64,000 nt of DNA from positions 434,001-498,000 of the forward strand of contig NZ_MUNS01000041.1 in the NCBI RefSeq assembly GCF_002002705.1, read 5' to 3'. Shown here one piece after another: positions 3,415-61,074 of the stretch. The number at the start of each line of letters is the position of its first letter. The first letter of the stretch is position 1. The stretch is from Polaromonas sp. C04. Its GTDB lineage: Bacteria > Pseudomonadota > Gammaproteobacteria > Burkholderiales > Burkholderiaceae_C. The position numbers and the translations under genes are program-made. The notes under the pieces were generated by a model. The model was not told the origin of the DNA. It ran no database searches and was given only the letters and a program-made list of their open reading frames with translations.

Positions 3415-3481
3415 GGTTGCTATTGAATCGATAGTGGCTAGTGCATGCCGGATATGGGCTGCAGGCCGATTTGGCTAAAAA
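3415..3481. repeat. Two-stem palindromic repeat, copy upstream of miaB
   Basis: Here stem B comes first (GCTATTGAATCGATAG, 3419-3434) and stem A second (GGGCTGCAGGCC, 3456-3467), followed by GATTTGGCTAAAA. Read on the minus strand the flank is AAATCGGCCTGCAGCCC, nearly identical to copies at about 59.2 kb and 23.2 kb. The copy lies between the miaB start and the end of the next minus-strand gene. Confidence 0.8.
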
Positions 3482-38965: not shown

Positions 38966-40264
38966 ATGAAGATATTGATCAAGAACGGCCGGGTCGTCGA
39001 CCCCGCCACGAATTTCGATGAAATATGCGATGTGGCCATTGCTGCAGGCCGCATCATAGCTATTAAAAATGTAGCGGACAGTTTCTTGCCAAACCGGATT
39101 CTGGATGCGTCGGGCTGCGTGGTGGCGCCCGGCCTGGTGGACCTGGCCGTGCGGCTGCGCGAGCCCGGCCATGAGCATGAAGGCATGCTGGAGTCCGAAA
39201 TGGCCGCGGCCGTGGCCGGCGGCATCAGCAGCCTGGTGTGCGCGCCCGATACCGATCCGGTGCTCGACGAGCCGGGCCTGGTGGAGATGCTGAAAATGCG
39301 CGCCGAAAAGCTGCACCAGGCCCGCGTCTTTCCGCTCGGCGCCCTGACGCGCAACCTGCAGGGCGAGGTGCTGACCGAGATGGTCGAGCTGACCGAGGCC
39401 GGCTGCGTGGGCTTCGGGCAGGCCGAGGTGCCGCTGGCCAACACGCAGGTGCTGCTGCGCGCGCTGCAGTACGCCGGCACCTTCGGCTACACGGTCTGGT
39501 TGCGCCCGCAGGAGCTGTATCTGGGCACGGGCGTGGCGGCCAGCGGCCCGCTGGCCACCCGCATGGGCCTGGCGGGCGTGCCGGTGGCGGCCGAGACGAT
39601 TGCGCTGCACACCATCTTCGAACTCACCAAGGCCACCGGCGCGCGCGTGCACATTTGCCGCCTCAGCAGTGCGGCCGGCGTGGCCCTGGTGCGCCAGGCC
39701 AGGGACGAAGGCCTTGGCGTGACCTGCGACGTCAGCATCAATTCGCTGCATCTGACCGACACCGACATTGGCTACTTCGACAGCCGGGCCCGCCTGAACC
39801 CGCCGCTGCGCCAGCAGCGCGACCGCGACGCGATCCGCGAGGGCCTGGCCGACGGCACCATCGATGCCCTGGTGTCCGACCACACACCGGTCGATGAAGA
39901 CGCCAAGGCGCTGCCATTTGCCGAGGCCGAGGCCGGCGCCACCGGCGTCGAGTTGCTGCTGAGCCTGGCGCTCAAGTGGGGTCAGGAAAGCGGCGTGGGC
40001 CTCACGCGCGCGCTGGCGGTGCTGACCAGCGAGCCGGCGCGCGTGCTGGGTACGGCACTGGGCACCTTGCAGGCCAGCGCCGGCCAGCTGGTGGCGGGCG
40101 GCGTCGCCGATGTCTGCATCTTCGACCCCCAGGACGAATGGACGGTGCGGCCCGAGGCGCTGTGCAGCCAGGGCAAGCACACGCCGTTTTCCGGTTACGC
40201 GCTGCCCGGGCGGGTGCGCTGCACCATCGTGGGCGGACAGGTGGCATTTGAACGTGCCGCCTAG
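38966..40264 (+). CDS. pyrX: Dihydroorotase-like pseudo-enzyme PyrX (PyrC'), ATCase partner
   Basis: This 432-residue amidohydrolase-fold protein is homologous to dihydroorotase but lacks the key metal site. The usual DxHxHLREPG motif is replaced by GLVDLAVRLREPGHEHEG near residue 57, so the HxH pair is missing. The later metal-histidine region reads TVWLRPQELYLG instead of a His-rich motif. It is therefore almost surely inactive. In Pseudomonas such PyrC' proteins are needed to assemble active PyrB. A repeat lies in its N-terminal codons (reading RIIAIKNVADSF). Confidence 0.92.
   Translation: MKILIKNGRVVDPATNFDEICDVAIAAGRIIAIKNVADSFLPNRILDASGCVVAPGLVDLAVRLREPGHEHEGMLESEMAAAVAGGISSLVCAPDTDPVLDEPGLVEMLKMRAEKLHQARVFPLGALTRNLQGEVLTEMVELTEAGCVGFGQAEVPLANTQVLLRALQYAGTFGYTVWLRPQELYLGTGVAASGPLATRMGLAGVPVAAETIALHTIFELTKATGARVHICRLSSAAGVALVRQARDEGLGVTCDVSINSLHLTDTDIGYFDSRARLNPPLRQQRDRDAIREGLADGTIDALVSDHTPVDEDAKALPFAEAEAGATGVELLLSLALKWGQESGVGLTRALAVLTSEPARVLGTALGTLQASAGQLVAGGVADVCIFDPQDEWTVRPEALCSQGKHTPFSGYALPGRVRCTIVGGQVAFERAA
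39040..39080. repeat. Two-stem repeat remnant embedded in pyrX
   Basis: GCTGCAGGCCGC (39041-39052) resembles stem A, and GCTATTAAAAATGTAGC (39059-39075) resembles stem B. The base composition here (TAGCTATTAAAAATGTAGC) is AT-rich against a GC-rich gene. It encodes about residues 26-40 of PyrX in an outer strand of the N-terminal barrel, where insertion would be tolerated. Confidence 0.55.
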
Positions 40265-57512: not shown

Positions 57513-58316
57513 TCAGGCGCGCCGGCTGCTGAGCAGGCGCGAGATCGCCTGGGCCGCTTCCAGCAGGGCCGGGCGCATGCTGTCCTGCATCACGCGCGCA
57601 GAGGTCCGGTTCGCCTGACCGCTGATGTTCAGCGCCGCGACCGTGCGGCCGGCCTGGTTGGTGATGGGCGCCGCGATGGAGATCAATCCCTCTTCGAGCT
57701 CCTGGTTCACCAGACACCAGCCCTGCCGGCGCGCCTGGTCGATTTGCGCCAGCACGTCGTCGATGTCGGTCAGCGTGTGCCGGGTCAGTGGCTGGATCTT
57801 CGAGGCGGCCAGAATCTTGCGCACCTGCGCCTGTGGCGCATCGGCCAGCAGCATGCGCCCCATAGAGGTGCAATAGGCCGGCAGGCGCGAGCCCACGCCG
57901 AGCGAAATGCTCATGATCTTGTGCGTCGATACGCGCAGCACATACACGATGTCGGTGCTTTCCAGCACGGCGGCAGAGCTGGACTCCTTGATCTGCTCCA
58001 CCAGGCCTTCCATCACCGGCTCGGCCAGGTTCCAGATCGGCATCGACGACAGGTAAGCAAAGCCGAGGTCGAGAATGCGCGGCGTCAGGCTGAAATATTT
58101 GCCGTCGGTCTCCACATAACCCAGGGTCAAAAGCGTGAGCAAGATGCGCCGCGCCCCGGCGCGCGTGAGCCCGCTGCGCGCGGCGACCTCGGTCAGCGTC
58201 TGCTGCGGCGCCTGCGCGCTGAACGAGCGGATCACCTCCAGCCCGCGCGCGAACGACTGCACATAGCTGTCGCCGGGCTGCGGTGTTTTCGCGGCGGCGG
58301 ATTGAGTGGTTGCCAT
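57513..58316 (-). CDS. IclR-family transcriptional regulator (PcaR/PobR-like)
   Basis: This 267-residue regulator has an N-terminal helix-turn-helix (SYVQSFARGLEVIRSFSAQAPQQTLTEVAARSGLTRAGARRILLTLLTLGYVE) and a C-terminal IclR effector domain (SRLPAYCTSMGRMLLADAP). Its divergent placement before pcaIJF makes it the likely regulator of those genes, probably responding to beta-ketoadipate or a related acid, as PcaR does. Palindromic sites lie in the intergenic region. Confidence 0.92.
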   Translation of the reverse strand: MATTQSAAAKTPQPGDSYVQSFARGLEVIRSFSAQAPQQTLTEVAARSGLTRAGARRILLTLLTLGYVETDGKYFSLTPRILDLGFAYLSSMPIWNLAEPVMEGLVEQIKESSSAAVLESTDIVYVLRVSTHKIMSISLGVGSRLPAYCTSMGRMLLADAPQAQVRKILAASKIQPLTRHTLTDIDDVLAQIDQARRQGWCLVNQELEEGLISIAAPITNQAGRTVAALNISGQANRTSARVMQDSMRPALLEAAQAISRLLSSRRA

Positions 58317-58339
58317 GCTCGTGTAAATCTCCTAGAATT

Positions 58340-58378
58340 CATTATACGAACACTTGTTCTTATTATGAACAAATAATG
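58340..58378. promoter_or_regulatory. Nested inverted repeats, candidate IclR/PcaR operator
   Basis: TTGTTC (58354-58359) and GAACAA (58367-58372) are 6-bp arms around 7 nt. GAACA-ct-TGTTC (58348-58359) overlaps them, and CATTAT (58340-58345) with ATAATG (58373-58378) forms an outer pair. The AT-rich block is distinct from its GC-rich surroundings and lies in the gap between the IclR gene and pcaI, so it probably controls both. Confidence 0.65.
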
Positions 58379-58446
58379 AGCCCTCTCGCCAGATTGGCGA
58401 AGCGGGTCAGACCGGCCACCCTTATTCCCTGTTTTGGAGATTTTTC

Positions 58447-59151
58447 TTGATCAACAAGATTGCTGCCTCTGTGGCCGACGCGCTGGCGGATGTGCAAGAC
58501 GGCGCCACCGTCATGATTGGCGGCTTCGGCACGGCCGGCATTCCCGATGAACTCATCAACGGCCTGATCGCGCAGGGCGCGAAGGATCTGACCGTGGTCA
58601 ACAACAACGCCGGCAATGCCGACGTCGGGCTGGCGGCGCTGCTCAAGGCGGGCCGCGTGCGCAAGGTCATCTGCAGCTTTCCGCGCCAGGCCGACTCGTA
58701 TGTGTTCGACGCGCTGTACCGCAGTGGCAAACTCGAACTCGAACTGGTGCCGCAGGGCAACCTGGCCGAGCGCATCCGCGCGGCGGGCGCGGGCATCGGC
58801 GCCTTCTTCACGCCCACGGGCTACGGCACCGAGCTCGCCAAGGGCAAGGAAACCCGCGAGATCAACGGCAAGCACTACGTGCTGGAGCTGCCTATCTACG
58901 GCGATGTGGCCCTGATCAAGGCCGAACGCGGCGACCGCTGGGGCAACCTGACCTACCGCAAGGCCGCGCGCAATTTCGGCCCGGTGATGGCGACCGCCGC
59001 GAAGAAAACCGTGGCCACGGTGCACGAGATTGTCGAGCTGGGCGAGTTGAATCCGGAGCATATCGTGACGCCCGGCATCTTCGTGCACCAGATCGTGAAG
59101 ATCGACCGCGTCGCGACGCAGGCCGGCGGCTTCAAGCAGGCCGTGGCGTGA
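58447..59151 (+). CDS. pcaI: 3-oxoadipate CoA-transferase subunit A PcaI
   Basis: This 234-residue subunit of the CoA transferase starts with a TTG (MINKIAASVADALADVQDG), a GGAG ribosome site lying about 7 nt upstream. The CoA-binding segment VMIGGFGTAGIPDELINGLI is near residue 23. With PcaJ it moves CoA from succinyl-CoA to beta-ketoadipate. It is the first gene of pcaIJF. Confidence 0.95.
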   Translation: MINKIAASVADALADVQDGATVMIGGFGTAGIPDELINGLIAQGAKDLTVVNNNAGNADVGLAALLKAGRVRKVICSFPRQADSYVFDALYRSGKLELELVPQGNLAERIRAAGAGIGAFFTPTGYGTELAKGKETREINGKHYVLELPIYGDVALIKAERGDRWGNLTYRKAARNFGPVMATAAKKTVATVHEIVELGELNPEHIVTPGIFVHQIVKIDRVATQAGGFKQAVA

Positions 59152-59164
59152 ACATCCTCCATCC

Positions 59165-59225
59165 ATATATGAATCAAATCGGCCTGTAGCCCAAAGAGAA
59201 TCCGCATGAGTAGCTATCAAAAACG
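59165..59225. repeat. Two-stem repeat overlapping the pcaJ start
   Basis: ATCAAATCGGCCTGTAGCCC (stem A flank, 59173-59192) is followed by AAAGAGA and the pcaJ ATG. TAGCTATCAAAA (about 59211-59222) is a stem B remnant that encodes pcaJ codons 3-6. The left flank closely matches the copies at 3.4 kb and 23.2 kb on the opposite strand. Confidence 0.7.
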
Positions 59226-59850
59226 CAGCAAAGACCAGCTCGCCGCGCGCGTGGCGCAAGACATTGACGAAGGCGCCACGGTGAATCTCGGCATCGGCAT
59301 GCCGACGCTGGTGGCCAACCACATCCCCGCCAGCCGCGAGGTCATCCTGCACAGCGAGAACGGCATTCTCGGCATGGGCCCGGCGCCAGCCGCAGGTGAG
59401 GAAGACTACGACCTGATCAACGCCGGCAAGCAGCCGGTCACGCTGCTGCCCGGCGGCGCGTTCTTCCACCATGCCGACAGCTTTGCCATGATGCGCGGCG
59501 GCCATCTGGACATCTGCGTGCTGGGCGCGTTCCAGGTCAGCGCCACGGGCGACCTGGCGAACTGGCACACCGGCGCGCCCGACGCCATCCCCGCCGTCGG
59601 CGGCGCGATGGACCTGGCGATTGGCGCGCGCCAGACCTGGGTCATGATGGACCTGCTCACCAAAAAGGGCGAGAGCAAGATCGTCAAAACCTGCACCTAT
59701 CCGCTGACCGGCATCGCCTGCGTGAAACGGATTTACTCCGAACTCGCCACGCTGGCCTGCACGCCGCAGGGCCTCAAACTGATTGATAAAGTCGAAGGCC
59801 TGGCGCACACCGAGCTCGAAAAGCTGGTCGGCCTTTCCATCCAGCCCTAA
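59206..59850 (+). CDS. pcaJ: 3-oxoadipate CoA-transferase subunit B PcaJ
   Basis: This 214-residue subunit carries the catalytic glutamate in VILHSENGILGMGPAP near residue 50. Other family segments are LLPGGAFFHHADSFAMMRGGHLDICVLGAFQV and MDLAIGARQTWVMMDLL. The ATG follows AAAGAGA. The ribosome site and first codons (MSSYQKRS) lie in a repeat copy. Confidence 0.96.
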   Translation: MSSYQKRSKDQLAARVAQDIDEGATVNLGIGMPTLVANHIPASREVILHSENGILGMGPAPAAGEEDYDLINAGKQPVTLLPGGAFFHHADSFAMMRGGHLDICVLGAFQVSATGDLANWHTGAPDAIPAVGGAMDLAIGARQTWVMMDLLTKKGESKIVKTCTYPLTGIACVKRIYSELATLACTPQGLKLIDKVEGLAHTELEKLVGLSIQP

Positions 59851-59868
59851 CCCAACCAGGAGATCCCC

Positions 59869-61074
59869 ATGTCAAACCAGGCCTTCATCTGCGACGCCAT
59901 CCGCACCCCCTTTGGCCGCTACGGCGGCGCCCTCTGCAGCGTGCGCACCGATGACCTCGGCGCGATTCCCTTGAAGGCGCTGATGGCGCGTAACCCGACG
60001 GTGGACTGGCAGGCCGTCACTGATGTCCTCTATGGCTGCGCGAATCAGGCCGGTGAAGACAACCGCAACGTGGCGCGCATGGCCAGCCTGCTGGCCGGCT
60101 TGCCGATCGAGCTGCCGGGCGCCACCATCAACCGCCTGTGCGGCTCCGGGCTCGACGCGCTGGGCAGCGCGGCGCGCGCCATCAAGGCGGGCGAGGCTTC
60201 GCTGATGATTGCCGGCGGCGTCGAGAGCATGAGCCGCGCGCCCTTCGTCATGCCCAAAGCCGAGAGCGCCTTCAGCCGCGCCAACGCGGTGTACGACACG
60301 ACCATCGGCTGGCGCTTCGTCAACAAGCTGATGAAGGCGCAATACGGCGTGGACTCGATGCCCGAGACGGCGGAGAACGTCGCCACCGATTACAAGATCA
60401 GCCGCCAGGACCAGGACAAGATGGCGCTGGCCTCGCAGCTCAAGGCCGTGGCGGCGCAAAAGTCGGGCTATTTCGACGCCGAGATCACCCCCGTAACCAT
60501 AGCCCAGAAAAAGGGCGACCCGGTCGTGGTGAGCCGCGACGAGCACCCGCGTGACACCTCGATGGAGGTGCTGGCCAAACTCAAACCCATCGTGCGTGCC
60601 GACGGCACCATCACCGCGGGCAACGCCAGCGGCGTCAACGACGGCGCCTGCGCGCTGCTGCTGGCCGACGAGGCCGGCGCCGCCAAATATGGCCTCACGC
60701 CCAAGGCCCGCGTGGTCGGCATGGCCACGGCCGGCGTGGCCCCGCGCATCATGGGCATGGGCCCCGCGCCGGCCTCGCAAAAGGTGCTGGCCTTGAGCGG
60801 CCTGACCATCGCGCAGATGGACGTGATCGAACTCAACGAAGCCTTCGCCGCGCAGGGCCTGGCGGTGCTGCGCCAGCTCGGCGTGCCCGACGACGACCCG
60901 CGCGTCAACCCGAACGGCGGCGCCATTGCGCTGGGCCATCCGCTCGGCGCCTCCGGGGCGCGCCTGGCGACCACGGCCGTCAACCAGCTGGTCAAGAGCG
61001 GTGGCCGCTACGCGCTGTGCACCATGTGCATCGGCGTGGGGCAGGGCATTGCGGTGATCCTGGAGCGGGTCTGA
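59869..61074 (+). CDS. pcaF: 3-oxoadipyl-CoA thiolase PcaF
   Basis: This 401-residue thiolase cleaves beta-ketoadipyl-CoA to acetyl-CoA and succinyl-CoA. The nucleophilic Cys is in TINRLCGSGLDALGSAAR near residue 90. NPNGGAIALGHPLGASGARL near 350 has the catalytic His, and CTMCIGVGQGIAV near 386 the second Cys. It ends the pcaIJF operon; PaaJ-like thiolases share this sequence, so it may also serve the phenylacetate pathway. Confidence 0.95.
   Translation: MSNQAFICDAIRTPFGRYGGALCSVRTDDLGAIPLKALMARNPTVDWQAVTDVLYGCANQAGEDNRNVARMASLLAGLPIELPGATINRLCGSGLDALGSAARAIKAGEASLMIAGGVESMSRAPFVMPKAESAFSRANAVYDTTIGWRFVNKLMKAQYGVDSMPETAENVATDYKISRQDQDKMALASQLKAVAAQKSGYFDAEITPVTIAQKKGDPVVVSRDEHPRDTSMEVLAKLKPIVRADGTITAGNASGVNDGACALLLADEAGAAKYGLTPKARVVGMATAGVAPRIMGMGPAPASQKVLALSGLTIAQMDVIELNEAFAAQGLAVLRQLGVPDDDPRVNPNGGAIALGHPLGASGARLATTAVNQLVKSGGRYALCTMCIGVGQGIAVILERV

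Follow-up and report, generated by a model that had tools for sequence, protein, structure and literature searches.

An interspersed repeat at the translation start of pcaJ in the Comamonadaceae

Repeats fused to genes and the class of the present element

REP elements carry a GTAG or CGTC tag at one end, and the repeat flanks a RAYT transposase gene; MITEs are defined by terminal inverted repeats together with a target-site duplication. The REP unit is palindromic and 20–40 bp long, a definition drawn in part from PMC3733652. Excerpts of three further reports describe repeats that have become fused to genes. The Rickettsia palindromic elements (RPE) are about 150 bp long and lie inside protein genes, often in frame (PMC10969869); the enterobacterial repeats RU-1, RU-2 and RU-3 are intergenic, span 103–168 bp and are found fused to reading frames, near the N-terminus in the case of RU-2 in wbbJ of Y. 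pestis (PMC2759123); and the QMITE elements of Coxiella burnetii are MITEs whose in-frame entry into genes changes the gene ends or expression (PMC5896051).

We have analyzed a 64,000-nucleotide stretch (the window) of the 4.17-Mb genome of Polaromonas sp. C04, in which translation of a conserved metabolic gene, pcaJ, seems to start within a repeat of ~65 nt, in the same base-pair register in several genera. As in the excerpted account of the RPE, the repeat is also present in frame in a protein gene (moeA, in locus L312; see below), but the copy at pcaJ is shorter, covers the ribosome site and start codon, coincides with existing codons instead of adding a peptide, and occupies one locus in several genera. 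The RU fusions differ in that those described in the excerpts are mainly C-terminal and in single genomes, and the excerpts of PMC2759123 make no mention of a start or initiation codon or of ATG; QMITE is another element in another host, and the excerpts of PMC5896051 mention neither a start codon nor the N-terminal end. In-frame repeat fusions are thus known from the RPE, RU and QMITE, but in the open-licence literature, represented in part by excerpts, we found no precedent for a conserved gene whose ribosome site and start codon are formed by a repeat, with the same register kept across several genera. The same literature, outside which most subscription papers fall, yielded no description of this repeat (AGCTATCAAAA, TTTTGATAGCT) or of a repeat-borne start, and six Comamonadaceae genus names sought in the REP/RAYT report (PMC3733652) were not found there.

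Alignment of copies from the window's own genome gives a unit of ~65 nt that reads roughly TTT..AG..AAA..GGCCTGTAGCCCTTAC.......TGCGCAG..AGCTATCAAAA..ATAGCAA, with about five of 21 AGCTATCAAAA places lacking an evident 5′ half as judged by eye. The repeat resembles the REP/RAYT systems, insofar as the excerpts portray them, in being short, abundant, partly palindromic and intergenic, and in sharing its genome with one Y1 transposase gene. It differs in being longer and weakly structured, and any link to the Y1 gene is putative; at ~65 nt it lies outside the REP size range. Many copies contain GTAG (CCTGTAGCCC; also GTAGC towards the 3′ end), at most a candidate end tag, and no consensus fold was obtained across 14 own-genome copies. 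The single Y1_Tnp match in the genome (L382, contig C6, 51778–52104) is in a gene that we take to be RAYT-like; the own-genome profile finds no clear repeat copy in its 3.3-kb locus, the best placement (13.3 bits) being next to a TTTTGATAGC. Y1 matches are present in 225 of 299 family genomes. Visual inspection of the aligned copies showed no conspicuous terminal inverted repeats or target-site duplications, the hallmarks of a MITE. Among 120 genomes sampled across the order, to which this family contributed only three, AGCTATCAAAA counts were 21 and 88 in two of the three family members, and no genome outside the family had more than eight matches, with up to five in the reversed controls.

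The repeat copy at the start of pcaJ

The pcaJ gene (59206–59850, forward strand; ATG at 59206–59208) encodes subunit B of 3-oxoacid CoA-transferase, as indicated by a TIGR02428 match above the curated cut-off (283.5 bits; cut-off 243.55) and by the adjoining pcaI and pcaF genes; a PF01144 match covers residues 10–185. Upstream is pcaI (58447–59151, forward strand), encoding CoA-transferase subunit A, which begins with TTG, ends with TGA at 59149–59151, and matches PF01144 and TIGR02429 (379.2 bits; cut-off 128.5). The 3-oxoadipyl-CoA thiolase gene pcaF (59869–61074, forward strand; TIGR02430, 705.7 bits; cut-off 597) is next downstream, and an IclR-type regulator of the PcaR/PcaU/PobR group is encoded on the reverse strand at 57513–58316 (TIGR02431, 337.9 bits; cut-off 284.75). 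No Rfam match at gathering score was found within 58000–61000.

A 15-nt spacer (59152–59166) separates the pcaI stop codon from a single complete copy of the interspersed repeat at 59167–59233, in sense orientation to the operon; its extent is taken from blastn and column matches, and the ends are approximate. The upstream half, ATCAAATCGGCCTGTAGCCC, occupies 59173–59192 and is followed in mid-repeat by AAAGAGA, a Shine-Dalgarno-like stretch at 59193–59199, and the 3′ half, TAGCTATCAAAA, at 59211–59222 spans pcaJ codons 3–6 (SYQK), such that AAAGAGA, the ATG and pcaJ codons 1–9 (MSSYQKRSK) are all inside the copy. The earlier note had placed a stem A flank 13 nt ahead of the ATG, stem B sequence in codons 3–6, and the ribosome site and translation start region within a repeat sited between pcaI and pcaJ, and all of these are borne out by the coordinates. 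It had also called the stem B sequence a remnant; the copy is instead complete, as the 15 genomic matches described below are uniform in length and a blastn partner aligns over 64 nt. Because the PF01144 match starts at residue 10, the repeat is confined to the tail of PcaJ that precedes the domain.

Several searches of the sequence address how far this copy departs from expectation. Allowing up to three mismatches, the 20-mer ATCAAATCGGCCTGTAGCCC occurs twice (0.00 expected), the second occurrence, near 3456, being another repeat copy; the 12-mer TAGCTATCAAAA with up to two mismatches occurs six times (0.47 expected). The pattern GCCTGTAGC-N(12-40)-AGCTAT is found at 15 places in the genome, including pcaJ, and at none in the reversed control, and all 15 matches are exactly 36 nt long despite the free gap. 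When compared with 14 other own-genome copies the pcaJ copy matches at 34 of 50 conserved columns, 19 of 28 before the ATG and 15 of 22 from the ATG on, but 11 of those 22 are the AGCTATCAAAA anchor used to pick the copies, and outside the anchor four of 11 match. A blastn search of the own genome returned 38 other places at E values up to 10, one of them a copy aligned to query positions 26–89 (64 nt, 76%). Against a profile from 20 other own-genome AGCTATCAAAA places, the 34 nt that precede the ATG reach 20.6 bits, and this upstream half by itself only equals the best placement across 60 random 64-kb windows (20.6; mean of bests, 14.0). The strength of the case is in the fixed position of the upstream half relative to the 3′ half and in its recurrence in other genera.

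This recurrence was assessed at 190 pcaJ junctions of the family, comprising the 80 best of 574 confirmed relatives in genome contigs and the 110 best listed matches from 299 sampled family genomes (three of the window's genus, 27 further loci and 80 additional stretches, with weaker relatives outside the sample). Removal of 14 duplicates left 177 distinct family junctions and also took out the outgroup locus L276, which is the same place as L184. Repeat profiles were built from places anchored on AGCTATCAAAA alone, with pcaJ excluded (20 from the own genome, 40 from four others). When only the 34 nt before the start codon were scored at 121 offsets, the best offset was 0 in 50 of the 190 junctions, where about 1.6 would be expected; the next commonest, +56 (30 junctions) and +21 (14), are low-scoring conserved coding places common to related sequences. 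With six profiles and both strands, the upstream half is in exact register at 13 bits or more in 31 of the 177 distinct junctions, compared with six matches at all remaining placements (total scanned, 90,624). By eye, one of these six is the palindrome of L074 itself, one (L084) is a genuine copy elsewhere, and the others are marginal. L084 is from a Polaromonas metagenome-assembled genome, and its seemingly genuine copy lies upstream of pcaJ, out of register. The pcaJ copy is full length and sense-oriented, and its register matches the codons around S-Y-Q-K; this register recurs in several genera in which out-of-register copies are nearly absent.

At a 9-bit threshold, 35 of the 177 junctions are classed as repeat-bearing, nine as weak and 133 as repeat-less; most of the relatives examined lack the repeat, the point that the note had suggested checking by alignment of the junction. 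Two genomes of the same genus have the same arrangement, with AAGGAGA (G006) or AAGGAAA (G001) in place of AAAGAGA; of the other four, three (G002, G003 and G005) yielded only a paralogue at 48–50% identity and G004 a partial match. Some relatives without the repeat, such as L136 (TGACATGAGCTATCAAAAACGTAGCAAAGAC), have matching codons at a tight junction.

The junction copies are associated with genomes rich in the repeat. For the 110 loci with a genome count, genomes with at least five AGCTATCAAAA matches hold 22 of 23 repeat-bearing, five of seven weak and 23 of 80 repeat-less junctions (Fisher 4.5e-9 for repeat-bearing against repeat-less, the seven weak ones left out and kinship ignored); the 23 repeat-less junctions mean that a repeat-rich genome does not always have a junction copy. 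The single repeat-bearing exception is genome G246, with no matches, and two other sampled members of its genus have 22 and 36.

The codons and the origin of the junction copies

The earlier note had proposed that the first residues of PcaJ were supplied by the repeat, a claim that holds in part. Among 44 junctions in genomes with zero or one AGCTATCAAAA, seven read YQKR[ST]K (five repeat-less, one weak and one repeat-bearing), and outgroup families f3 and f38 include the N-termini SYKPRSRD, SIQRRTRD, TFKRRTRD and SYQRLSRD; most of the residues therefore predate the repeat. The contribution of the repeat is the leader with its start codon and, probably, TAT for tyrosine. Tyrosine is encoded by TAT in 32 of 35 repeat-bearing rows and in 24 of 124 repeat-less rows with Tyr (0.30 and 0.33, respectively, in the rest of the gene), and the start lies one codon further upstream, at codon 1, in all 35 repeat-bearing rows compared with 38 of 133 repeat-less ones. 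CAA and AAA codons are frequent in both classes, at 50 of 75 and 48 of 60 in repeat-less rows. In paired tree comparisons, in which only four independent pairs on starred branches are available and no codon trait can reach significance, TAT (2.4 to 0.0) and the start position (2.3 to 0.0) favor the repeat, and neither AAA at Lys-6 (0.5 to 1.2) nor the residue Ser-8 (0.7 to 0.5) follows it.

The pcaJ start region is probably best explained by an interspersed repeat, abundant in the Comamonadaceae, one copy of which merged by homology with similar codons and turned into an ordinary translation-initiation region. Before its arrival, the N-terminus of PcaJ would have read roughly (S/T)-Y-Q-K-R-(S/T)-K, encoded by DNA similar to the 3′ end of the repeat, and this similarity could have served recombination, gene conversion or template switching with a copy at another genomic site. 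The upstream half would thereby have been pasted in front, converting a tight pcaI-pcaJ junction into a spacer with its own Shine-Dalgarno stretch and moving the start one codon further upstream; the resulting region presumably acts as a normal, weakly structured ribosome site rather than an RNA switch. After a plain insertion the original codons would be found next to the 3′ half of the repeat, yet as read from the sequence there is no second 3′ half beside the pcaJ codons and the two coincide, from which we infer a merge by homology. Against this, no donor copy or recent event was caught (the blastn search of the own genome found other copies, none with a shared flank), and the coding part of the copy agrees poorly with the repeat beyond the anchor, as noted above.

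The merge may have occurred repeatedly. The resemblance of the first pcaJ codons to the 3′ end of the repeat could have made this a recurrent landing site, with the leader and start codon of this gene of the beta-ketoadipate pathway independently overwritten by homology in at least three or four Comamonadaceae lineages (the window's genus with its neighbor g98, the Acidovorax-Comamonas group, and some Polaromonas), that is, a repeated exchange of the translation-initiation region by repeat conversion; we view this joint proposal as a serious possibility, albeit one held with a little less than even confidence. If repeated origins are true, a chance likeness between codons and the end of a repeat can direct where repeats settle, and the junctions form a natural series of ribosome sites in which the effect of such replacements on subunit balance could be measured. 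Junction copies track the repeat subtype of their own genome, but weakly: the permutation p is 0.0027 for eight junctions (110 of 40,320 arrangements as good), and the own genome ranks first in two of ten cases with kinship not removed. With a signal this weak and kinship retained, we rejected subtype tracking as proof of separate insertions.

The number of origins was examined in a PcaI+PcaJ tree of the 120 rows with pcaI in reach, 97 of them labelled repeat-bearing or repeat-less (L296 and L297 were dropped before trees were built, and weak rows were treated as missing in the rate models and excluded from the 97-row label analysis). The label requires eight changes, compared with 22 losses under a single origin, and a single repeat-bearing clade is rejected with p-AU 0.0137, in a test that came after the tree had been inspected. 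When the repeat is fixed as absent at the outgroup root, a rate model gives 4.6 gains and 5.2 losses and a probability of 0.006 that the repeat was present at the family root. A flat root prior raises this probability to 0.027–0.041 in the PcaI+PcaJ tree, and in the PcaJ tree it is 0.30 or 0.73 depending on the threshold; because the flat-prior rerun and the PcaJ tree weaken the fixed-root result, we adopt the weaker one, that the repeat may have arrived at pcaJ in this family once or about four to five times.

The alternative of a single arrival is that one old insertion in the Comamonadaceae ancestor made the PcaJ N-terminus, and that most genera then lost the upstream half, with the codons left as a fossil. 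In its favor, N-termini resembling SYQKRS are found widely across the family while short starts (MKRL, MNRL and the like) are seen at 10 of 21 outgroup loci, and holding the gain rate near zero under the flat prior costs just 1.7–2.2 lnL units in the PcaI+PcaJ tree (2.0–5.1 in the PcaJ tree), where the root probabilities are also higher. We nonetheless consider it unlikely given the 22 losses that it needs, the low probabilities of presence at the root of the PcaI+PcaJ tree under either prior, the similar N-termini already present in f3 and f38, and the failure of AAA at Lys-6 and of Ser-8 to follow the repeat in the paired comparisons.

RNA folding, chance and copies in other genes

It had also been proposed that mRNA folding of the repeat could determine the PcaI:PcaJ ratio, which we find very improbable. 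Genomic copies do have two hairpin-like arm pairs, and over 97 copies of several genomes the arms of stem A are coupled (38% fully paired compared with 30% when dealt anew, p 0.002). Copies from genomes G420, G421, G223 and G418 give a short consensus stem, which the tested junctions keep wholly or mostly (1.00 in L074 and L096, 0.75 in L081), and in these genera there may be a weak hairpin. In the window, however, two of four pairs remain in stem A (59189–59207; arms 59189–59192 and 59204–59207, forward strand), leaving it half broken, and three of four in stem B (59213–59229; arms 59213–59216 and 59226–59229). Folding of the leader RNA, the check suggested in the note, gave −7 kcal/mol and a z of +1.38, with 190 of 200 shuffles at least as stable, and repeat-bearing start regions are hardly above chance (mean z −0.21, n = 35; repeat-less, +0.40, n = 107). 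Stem A arms are not coupled in 34 junction copies (p about 0.18), and a folded RNA switch for the pcaJ copy was rejected on the leader z, this absence of coupling, and the absence of a consensus structure in the 14 own-genome copies. Chance, that is, ordinary conserved SYQKRSK codons next to an unrelated spacer, could draw on the CAA and AAA codons at the same place in repeat-less genes, on the AGCTATCAAAA places without an evident 5′ half and on an upstream half that alone does not surpass the best of 60 random windows, but is improbable in the extreme given that this non-coding half is in exact register at 31 of 177 junctions, with a link to repeat-rich genomes, and that the motif counts above expectation and, for the upstream half, the 36-nt geometry, the excess at offset 0 and the in-register excess all oppose it.

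Elsewhere in the window, a profile scan judged by eye recovered 11 further copies among its 15 best placements, near positions 2031, 3436, 8475, 14527, 18112, 23160, 24193, 41161, 45879, 46942 and 61119, the last of these directly behind pcaF. The sequence AGCTATTAAAAATGTAGC at 39058–39075 is in frame within a presumed dihydroorotase-like gene (GRIIAIKNVADSF), and is either a repeat or a coincidence. In genome G418, also the home of L096, locus L312 (reverse complement) has a full repeat copy in frame (...AVGRIGAASFEAETGCSQGEIMPDSYQNNSTSPLKGAVLFGLPGNPVAVMV...) in a gene that we take from its motif to be moeA-like, an arrangement resembling an RPE-type insertion. Locus L306 of genome G421 has an in-frame copy directly before VTCSKGTYIRTL in a presumably truB-like gene, where it seems to coincide with existing codons.

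We looked for genes that start within the repeat at 63 distinct copies from the window's genome and seven others, considering open reading frames of at least 100 amino acids that lack an earlier start. The only convincing same-strand cases were the pcaJ copies (L005, L304 and L309), and two others (L023 and L308) seemed spurious. On the opposite strand, a 307-aa open reading frame (MIDPPALLPGITVFERG...) at L021 (own genome, contig C8 near 11125) has an ATG that adjoins the 3′ half of the repeat, and is possibly a second gene start at a repeat.
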